From: Haloferax sulfurifontis ATCC BAA-897 | Lineage (GTDB): Archaea > Halobacteriota > Halobacteria > Halobacteriales > Haloferacaceae | DNA: 64,000 nucleotides | Direction of reading: 5' to 3' | Assembly (NCBI RefSeq): GCF_000337835.1 | Contig: NZ_AOLM01000012.1 | Location: 62,001 to 126,000 of the forward strand | In this document: positions 1,241 to 64,000 of the stretch, in pieces | Layout of the letters: each line of letters opens with the position of its first letter | Numbering within the stretch: the first letter of the stretch is position 1 | Notes under the pieces: model-generated | What the model was told of the DNA's origin: nothing | What the model saw: the letters and a program-made list of their open reading frames with translations, nothing else | Database searches by the model: none | Position numbers and translations under genes: made by a program

Positions 1241-1322
1241 GGGGTCGGGGCGGAGTTGTTGGTTTTTGATGTTTGTCGAGTAAGTCGTCTAATCAGGGTG
1301 CTTGAGAGTTTCGTACCACGCT

Positions 1323-2450
1323 TCAAACGTCATTAGGAAACACTTCGTTGAGAACCTGATTTCTATAGTTCTGATTGACTGCCGCTTGATAGACAAGTGG
1401 TTGATGAGAACTTTGATGGATAGAGCCAGAGGCTCTTTGAGCCTCACATATTGCGGCTTTCATCCACTCTCGGCGGAAAGTTGGGGTCAACATACGCTCA
1501 GGAGTTCCTTCGTATTCCACCCAATGGGGTGTCTTCTCTTCATCTTCTCCAGTGTTAGCTGAAAAATCAAGGTATCCATCTGCTTTTTCAATCAACTCAT
1601 CGAGGTTCTCGGTCTCCTCTCCGATAATGAATCCAGTCTTGGCTTTCCCTGTAAAGAAGGCACCTAATACCATACGTCGGTTAATAGAGATACTGATTCG
1701 TTTCTTTTGAGGGATTGCTGTGACCAACTCCGAATCATCCTCAGTTAGTCCCGTAGCGGCTATCAAGTCGCTCAGAAGATCGAAGAAGGAATCAGCCCAC
1801 TCCCGGCTTGGAGCCAATTGAACGCGATTCACTAGCGCTCTGTGTCCGTCGTCATCCACTTCTATGCTTCCCGCTATTGGTGGTTCAGTATCTTGTACGA
1901 AACTCGCGTTTACCCTTGGAGCATCAGAAGTAAGGGATGTAGGCCGTGAGTGGGTTGAAGAGCCAGACGGCGATGTATGGATAAGTTCATCAAGTTCTTC
2001 GAGGTCAACAGGGCTACTTTCAGACCAAAGCCGAGTGAACCATTCACGAAGCTCCTTGATTTTTGCTTCTTCGTTGAACTCAACACCCATCTCCGTTCGA
2101 CCGACTACGCCTTTCTCCGTGAGGTTCGCTGAGCCAAGGACTGCCGAATCATCTGAGAGAACTACTTTCGCGTGAATATGACGGAAATGGTGAACCCGGT
2201 CTTGATGCTCTTCGATGAACTTGCATATCTCTTCCCGTGATTCTCCGTGAAACGCCCCAACCCACGCCACTACATCGGTGATGATTCGCCAATTATCTAC
2301 GTCCCTGAGGATGCTTTTCACGTAAGTCGGGCTAATGTACGGACAGACAATTTTCGCCTCTTCAGAATCTGCCGTCTCCCTGATTGCCCTATCAAACGGC
2401 GATTCTCCCCGATTGTAACCCTCTTCTGTGTGATAGAGTAATCTACTCAT
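1323..2450 (-). CDS. phospholipase D-fold protein with one HKD motif
   Basis: 375 residues from an ATG at 2450. The N-terminal half has a single HxK(x4)D motif (His93, Lys95, Asp100) followed by GSANLTEKG, the signature of the PLD superfamily, which includes nucleases that dimerise to build the active site from two HKD motifs. Residues about 135-180 are a Ser/Pro-rich linker; residues about 185-375 form a second domain I do not recognise, with a NRRMVLGAFFTGK segment. Codon use is clearly AT-richer than in neighbours and less biased to acidic residues, which suggests recent transfer. It stands alone beside a tRNA gene. A nuclease or defence role is plausible, but this is inference. Confidence 0.8.
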   Translation of the reverse strand: MSRLLYHTEEGYNRGESPFDRAIRETADSEEAKIVCPYISPTYVKSILRDVDNWRIITDVVAWVGAFHGESREEICKFIEEHQDRVHHFRHIHAKVVLSDDSAVLGSANLTEKGVVGRTEMGVEFNEEAKIKELREWFTRLWSESSPVDLEELDELIHTSPSGSSTHSRPTSLTSDAPRVNASFVQDTEPPIAGSIEVDDDGHRALVNRVQLAPSREWADSFFDLLSDLIAATGLTEDDSELVTAIPQKKRISISINRRMVLGAFFTGKAKTGFIIGEETENLDELIEKADGYLDFSANTGEDEEKTPHWVEYEGTPERMLTPTFRREWMKAAICEAQRASGSIHQSSHQPLVYQAAVNQNYRNQVLNEVFPNDV

Positions 2451-2605
2451 TGATCAACGACAGATACTGAGCCCTCAAAAATCACAGAGACAGGAAGAGA
2501 CCACTCAAGTCTCTAAATGAAGCTGAATTCATGCAACGCTCCTACTACCATCTATGACGCACCAACTGCAGTCTGATTATTAGGAACCATAATAGATTAG
2601 AATAG

Positions 2606-2628
2606 GGGTTGGAGCGGATTCGAACCGC
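2606..2628 (-). repeat. partial copy of the tRNA-Val 3' end (candidate attachment site)
   Basis: These 23 bases match the 3' end of the tRNA-Val gene at 2730-2752 (acceptor strand, T arm and T loop) with a single mismatch (A for G at 2613), in the same orientation. Beyond 2628 the match ends. A fragment of a tRNA 3' end lying downstream of the intact gene is the classic scar of integrase-mediated insertion. The intact gene and the fragment are only about 100 bp apart, and no integrase gene is visible between them. Confidence 0.75.
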
Positions 2629-2728
2629 GGTCGCTCACGCCGTTCGCTCCCTGCTTTGAATCCGCCGTCACCACTTTCGATTCCACGGACTCCTCGCTGT
2701 CGCTCGTCGTTGCGAGGAATCAGAAAAT

Positions 2729-2803
2729 GGGTTGGGGCGGATTCGAACCGCCGGCCTGCTCCGTGTGAAGGAGCCGTCATAACCTGGCTAGACCACCAAC
2801 CCG
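2729..2803 (-). tRNA. tRNA-Val (anticodon CAC)
   Basis: A 75-base cloverleaf. The acceptor stem pairs GGGTTGG (2803-2797) with CCAACCC (2736-2730), followed by discriminator A at 2729. The anticodon stem GCTCC/GGAGC encloses the loop TTCACAC, giving anticodon CAC for GTG codons. The T arm is GGCGG-TTCGAAT-CCGCC. CCA is not encoded, as is usual in haloarchaea. No intron. It strongly resembles the tRNA-Val(GAC) at the right end of the window. Confidence 0.96.
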
Positions 2804-63915: not shown

Positions 63916-63990
63916 GGGTTGGTGGTCTAGTCTGGTTATGACACCTCCTTGACATGGAGGAGGCCGGCAGTTCAAATCTGCCCCAACCCA
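63916..63990 (+). tRNA. tRNA-Val (anticodon GAC)
   Basis: 75-base cloverleaf: acceptor GGGTTGG pairs with CCAACCC, discriminator A; anticodon stem CCTCC/GGAGG with loop TTGACAT, giving anticodon GAC for GTC and GTT codons. T arm GGCAG-TTCAAAT-CTGCC. A TATA-like gcttaaat (about 63850-63857) lies upstream. Very similar to tRNA-Val(CAC) at 2729-2803. Confidence 0.96.
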
Positions 63991-64000
63991 CTCCTCTTCC

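Follow-up and report, generated by a model that had tools for sequence, protein, structure and literature searches.

A foreign PLD gene inserted at a tRNA-Val 3'-end repeat of a kind widespread in Halobacteria

A strain-specific insertion of foreign origin in Haloferax sulfurifontis ATCC BAA-897 carries a PLD-family gene and has one breakpoint at a partial copy of the neighboring tRNA-Val, which belongs to a repeat, here called the tRNA echo, that recurs behind tRNA genes across the class. The locus was analyzed in a window of 64,000 nucleotides (contig NZ_AOLM01000012.1, positions 62,001 to 126,000). The common form of the echo runs from the tRNA through a segment termed h1, an inverted partial copy of the tRNA end and a GC-rich loop to a direct copy, and it folds as a hairpin; the unit behind tRNA-Val measures ~120 bp. 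The features of the locus are as follows, in window positions.

2728 to 2802, minus strand: intact tRNA-Val gene (anticodon CAC), from ARAGORN and Rfam RF00005 (62 bits).
2679 to 2722, minus strand: echo segment h1, a GC-rich hairpin adjoining tRNA-Val with inverted arms GATTCC/GGAATC and CCTCGC/GCGAGG, also present in congeners.
2655 to 2666, minus strand: inverted copy of the echo, equal to the reversed T-loop/T-stem of tRNA-Val, from local alignment with the reverse-complemented tRNA end.
2631 to 2654, minus strand: echo loop of the AGCAGGGAGCGAACGGCGTGAGCGACC type, the interval between the inverted and direct copies; loop types recur at other tRNAs and in congeners.
2606 to 2628, minus strand: direct copy of the echo, repeating the tRNA-Val 3' end at 22 of 23 bases, from sequence reading and the scan.
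1276 to 2605, no strand assigned: strain-specific insertion of 1.33 kb and 47% GC, marked by its GC content and without a counterpart in the same-species strain G059 and congeners.
1323 to 2450, minus strand: gene for a single-HKD PLD-family protein of 375 aa with an ATG start, from the ORF, its PLDc_2 match and full-length homologues that are sporadic in Halobacteria.
2091 to 2174, minus strand: HKD segment, residues 93-120 (HAKVVLSD...GSANLTEKGVVGRTE), with residues invariant in 12 homologues.
1326 to 1898, minus strand: unrecognized C-terminal domain, residues 185-375, with conserved W218, R259, F274, W329 and H349.

The preliminary description of this DNA had placed the tRNA-Val gene at 2729-2803, one base off the position above, and had pointed out a 23-base, one-mismatch copy of its 3' end at 2606-2628. 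The copy is confirmed: read off the sequence, 22 of its 23 bases agree with 2729-2751, and the scan scores 20 of 22. This is far above chance, yet ordinary for the host genome. Echoes were scored with each tRNA's own 3' 22 nt, requiring at least 18 matches within 500 bp. A downstream copy was found at 20 of the 50 tRNA genes in the host genome and an upstream copy at none of the 50, with a chance expectation of ~0.8 when the ends of other tRNAs served as queries. Ten other Halobacteria had downstream copies at 12 of 46 tRNAs sampled and no upstream copies, and none of 50 tRNAs from non-Halobacteria of the same phylum had one (Fisher 6e-5 for the other Halobacteria versus this outgroup), the tRNA samples from other genomes being partial and biased to high-scoring tRNAs. 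The downstream distance to the first copy is 73-154 bp in 29 of 32 cases, with a median of ~100. A paired T-loop motif, GATTYGAAC-N16..46-GTTCRAATC, was searched with the reversed pattern as control. Among 292 Halobacteria genomes the motif was present in 222, and a draw across the phylum found it in 37 of 43 Halobacteria versus 2 of 204 other genomes; the control pattern gave zero matches among the genomes listed. By eye, tRNA-Arg(TCT) has the echo layout in all seven genomes with readable downstream sequence, which represent six families; the direct copy is degenerate in two of them, and the intact ones follow each host's version of the tRNA end. The tRNA echo is a class-wide feature of Halobacteria that was not found in the related archaea sampled. 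No description of class-wide tRNA 3'-end copies in haloarchaea was found in the open-access literature.

Of 15 genomes in the genus, 13 have the direct copy at the tRNA-Val site, sites empty of the insertion included; G002 and G013 have lost the echo there. Close relatives combine the two h1 types and two loop types of this site differently, as if exchange had occurred at the T-loop copies. Inversion of the loop through the inverted copies was considered and rejected, as loops read against their own tRNA kept a single orientation (by eye). A scan of the echo against Rfam passed only the tRNA itself and no curated family; weak microRNA and hammerhead hits were taken as chance. Elsewhere in the window, tRNA-Val(GAC) at 63916-63991 has a twin 118 bp onward on the contig, and this pair has an inverted copy behind it and no good direct copy.

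One reading, which we consider rather unlikely, takes the echo as an RNA feature. The trailer of the tRNA transcript would form a hairpin mimicking the T-arm/acceptor end and would take part in 3' processing or termination or act as a small RNA, and insertions would be found there merely because tRNA flanks tolerate them generally. The narrow spacing behind the tRNA and the fixed loop orientation fit this reading, as do the tRNA-Ala(TGC) loci inspected, where no echo was found. Predicted folding is also stronger with the echo (median z = -2.66 versus -1.20), although such a signal is expected from any inverted repeat. The losses at tRNA-Val and the restriction of the echo to some tRNAs argue against an RNA function, as do the mosaic of echo segments among close relatives, arms that track each tRNA and not one fixed RNA sequence, and the lack of an Rfam family.

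The orthologous site was collected from 14 relatives, with many drafts among the compared genomes, and aligned to the window flanks. Alignments stop at ~1275 and restart at ~2606 in G003, G001, G007, G011, G006 and the same-species strain G059. The congener G002 also has no insertion, and its alignment restarts at 2697 because it has no echo either. The flanks lie ~60-95 bp apart in five congeners, with a spacer that resembles an older h1 segment. This short spacer in the empty sites identifies 1276-2605 as a strain-specific insertion that replaced the spacer. The direct copy sits on the tRNA side of the insertion, which starts at the end of the copy, and the tRNA-end copy predates the PLD insertion. 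It had been read as the scar of an integrated element, and this reading fails because the copy occurs in empty sites, between tRNA and insert, and class-wide. The absence from relatives that had been anticipated for the whole interval applies to 1276-2605, which is missing in G059 and six congeners, but not to the echo copy; the tRNA copy is thus shared with relatives and the PLD gene at this site is not.

The PLD gene is AT-richer than its surroundings, as had been noticed, with a GC content of 0.480 versus 0.669 for the window, the lowest of all 1,128-base segments. Its GC3 is 0.45 versus a mean of 0.89 for acidic ORFs. Thirteen relatives span most of the protein, all from Halobacteria: 12 were found in genomes and the other on a plasmid of Halobacterium. 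Two of them are not intact, L048 missing its N-terminus and L076 carrying a premature stop. Phage records and viral contigs contained no relative of the PLD protein. The three PLD genes of the genus do not form a clade (0 of 200 bootstraps), and the protein is 91% identical between genomes of two families. The dN/dS ratio is 0.12-0.22 in close homologue pairs, whereas the synonymous sites of the window copy itself are saturated. The lack of a genus clade, the cross-family identity and the low dN/dS indicate that the gene moves between lineages while the protein is kept. Absence at the orthologous sites together with foreign composition and phylogeny shows that the gene was acquired beside the tRNA. 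The insertion had been described as the remnant of an integrated element. That description stands for a strain-specific foreign insertion at a tRNA and not for the paired att copies and integrase of such an element: the far end of the insertion has no second tRNA-end copy, only the tRNA-side boundary having one, and no integrase gene lies within 1276-2605.

Insertions land on echoes in two further cases besides the window PLD gene. The first is at the same site in G059 (L031:9804-11287), where a different insert of ~1.44 kb lies between two tRNA-end copies (19/22 and 22/22) and, like the window insert, starts at the end of the echo copy. It contains an ORF without a recognized family and the broken N-terminus of a tyrosine integrase. 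This 40-aa integrase fragment had no match in Pfam or PHROGs and was recognized by its similarity to integrase-sized congener ORFs and annotated plasmid integrases. No full tRNA was found within 1.5 kb of those integrases, and wider stretches around them yielded one clear element, that of G011 described below. The second case is tRNA-Ala(GGC) of G002, whose echo copy is followed by a PLD gene of 56% identity on the same strand as the tRNA; G000 carries tandem echoes at the orthologous site and lacks the PLD gene. tRNA-Ala(GGC) itself is duplicated ~0.8-1.1 kb apart in L098/L099 (G000) and L045 (G002), with echoes behind both copies, and a small ORF lies between the copies in L045.

The window insertion might have arisen without a site-specific integrase, through homologous or illegitimate recombination in the repeat-rich flank of the tRNA. 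Only one of its boundaries is at a tRNA copy and short direct repeats are plentiful in the flank, as recombination of this kind would predict. We nevertheless judge this route improbable, as one boundary is where the 22-nt copy ends, the G059 insert at the same place has an integrase remnant between two copies, and the independent PLD insertion of G002 is placed alike at another tRNA. The tRNA itself also serves as an insertion target, and G011 provides the counter-example to echo use. An element of ~5 kb lies there between tRNA-Arg(TCG) and a 22/22 copy (L186:9319-14525). Its integrase adjoins the distal copy, one of its ORFs begins with a stretch that is GmrSD-like by eye, and the host echo persists beyond the element.

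We favor a two-layer explanation, for which the case is evenly balanced. The host tRNA-Val carries an old echo in the order tRNA, h1, inverted copy, loop and direct copy. The PLD gene would have arrived with a small integrative element that attached at the echo copy instead of the tRNA. Later loss of this element's integrase, of its far attachment site and of some flanking DNA would have left the present 1.33 kb. The echoes themselves may be attachment sites of tyrosine recombinases whose crossover lies in the T-loop/3' end of tRNAs, or else footprints or small folded sites of such enzymes, a proposal we hold at about even strength. The narrow echo spacing and the inverted arm are not explained by ordinary integration scars and count against this explanation. 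A further proposal, quite unlikely in our judgment, makes the echoes active class-specific recombination hairpins, assembled from each tRNA's 3' end in inverted and direct copy. Halobacteria would maintain them, and their tyrosine recombinases would recognize them as secondary attachment sites; tRNA genes would then act as integron-like platforms where cargo such as lone defense genes comes and goes, and the tRNA would be spared.

The preliminary assignment of the protein as a single-HKD PLD with an unrecognized C-terminal domain was borne out. PLDc_2 matches residues 55-142 (5e-10, 39.7 bits versus a cut-off of 27), and the single HxKx4D...GSxN motif places the protein in the PLD superfamily. 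H93, K95, G106-N109, R118 and E120 are invariant in 12 homologues. Residues 185-375 matched no Pfam family, either in the window protein or in 12 homologues scanned singly, and no PDB sequence; a single-sequence model of this domain had a pLDDT of 35, too low for use. The protein was not assigned to DrmC, DpdK or NgoFVII because its scores fall below their cut-offs: 34.6 bits versus 133 for the DrmC (DISARM) NCBIfam equivalog, 22.1 versus 100 for the DpdK NCBIfam equivalog, and 22.6 versus 23.8 for the Pfam RE_NgoFVII N-terminal family. All RE_NgoFVII matches in the 12 homologues were sub-threshold or weak, the NgoFVII DNA-binding C-terminal domain was not found, and none of the 12 members had any C-terminal family. 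No DrmA/DrmB or other partners lie within the insertion, the PLD gene being its sole content.

Single-HKD PLD enzymes use two subunits to build each active site. The window protein would likewise act as a dimeric HKD nuclease with two HxK motifs per active site, and its C-terminal domain may direct the putative nuclease to invading nucleic acid. The intact HKD motif, purifying selection on the family and some restriction-gene neighbors make a putative defense nuclease the most likely assignment. Genes for GmrSD, a Schlafen AlbA_2 protein and a beta-propeller/Mrr nuclease lie near homologues, although most homologues are not adjacent to defense genes. Other neighbors are Cdc6-type replication genes, an integrase and a sub-threshold ArdC-like domain, and relatives on bacterial plasmids share the N-terminal part only (residues 1-186 at most) within proteins of 786-960 codons beside HipA. 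These associations are what would be expected if the nuclease served mobile elements in plasmid establishment, inter-element competition or addiction and not host defense, a role that we regard as somewhat unlikely: GmrSD and Mrr restriction genes adjoin homologues too, and the kept catalytic residues and purifying selection are predicted equally by a defense role. Homologues in L074, L075 and L076 lie near an HFX_2341-like gene, with an apparent dnaG further on in L075 and L076, and this neighborhood may be another insertion hotspot, one that lacks a tRNA. A protein with an eCIS core domain is encoded near the homologue in L075 (3851-5323).

Taken alone, the PLD gene adds another likely defense nuclease to the mobile gene pool. 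The echo outweighs it as a simple, countable repeat found class-wide at many tRNA genes, where it marks places of insertion. If the echo is an attachment site, defense-gene turnover in haloarchaea could be mapped from it directly, and the idea that hosts protect their tRNAs with decoy targets could be tested. Partial tRNA copies in haloarchaea do not in themselves count as evidence of an integrated element.

The T-stem-loop is one of three regions of tRNAs targeted by integrases, and tRNA-Val(CAC) is favored in archaea (PMC8371274). The SNJ2, pR1SE and HSTV2 integrases are confined to Halobacteria (PMC8371274), which resembles the echo distribution as a correlation only. The locus shares a tRNA 3'-end copy and a T-loop/3'-end target with archaeal tRNA attachment sites (PMC8371274), including those of the Haloquadratum islands, where the portion of the source consulted describes classical tRNA insertions only (PMC3119063). 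An integrase beside the distal copy in related cases is a further likeness. The copy at tRNA-Val differs from such sites in that it predates the insert, lies ~100 bp behind the tRNA and has an inverted arm, and echoes occur at many tRNAs without any element. Among PLD nucleases, DrmC of DISARM, DpdK and the NgoFVII type share the HKD catalytic segment and are the best matches, yet sub-threshold ones; the window protein differs in its C-terminal domain, and its insertion lacks system partners. Integron attC and other folded single-strand attachment sites are imperfect inverted repeats with a loop beside cargo genes. The echo resembles them in hairpin layout, the one likeness observed here, and differs in being made from the target tRNA's own 3' end and in having no cassette array with an adjacent integrase. 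The 178-bp repeats of E. coli tyrT stand in tandem behind a tRNA gene, and each opens by repeating the tRNA 3' end. That arrangement is found at one locus, whereas the echo occurs at many tRNA genes across a class and has an inverted arm and a hairpin.
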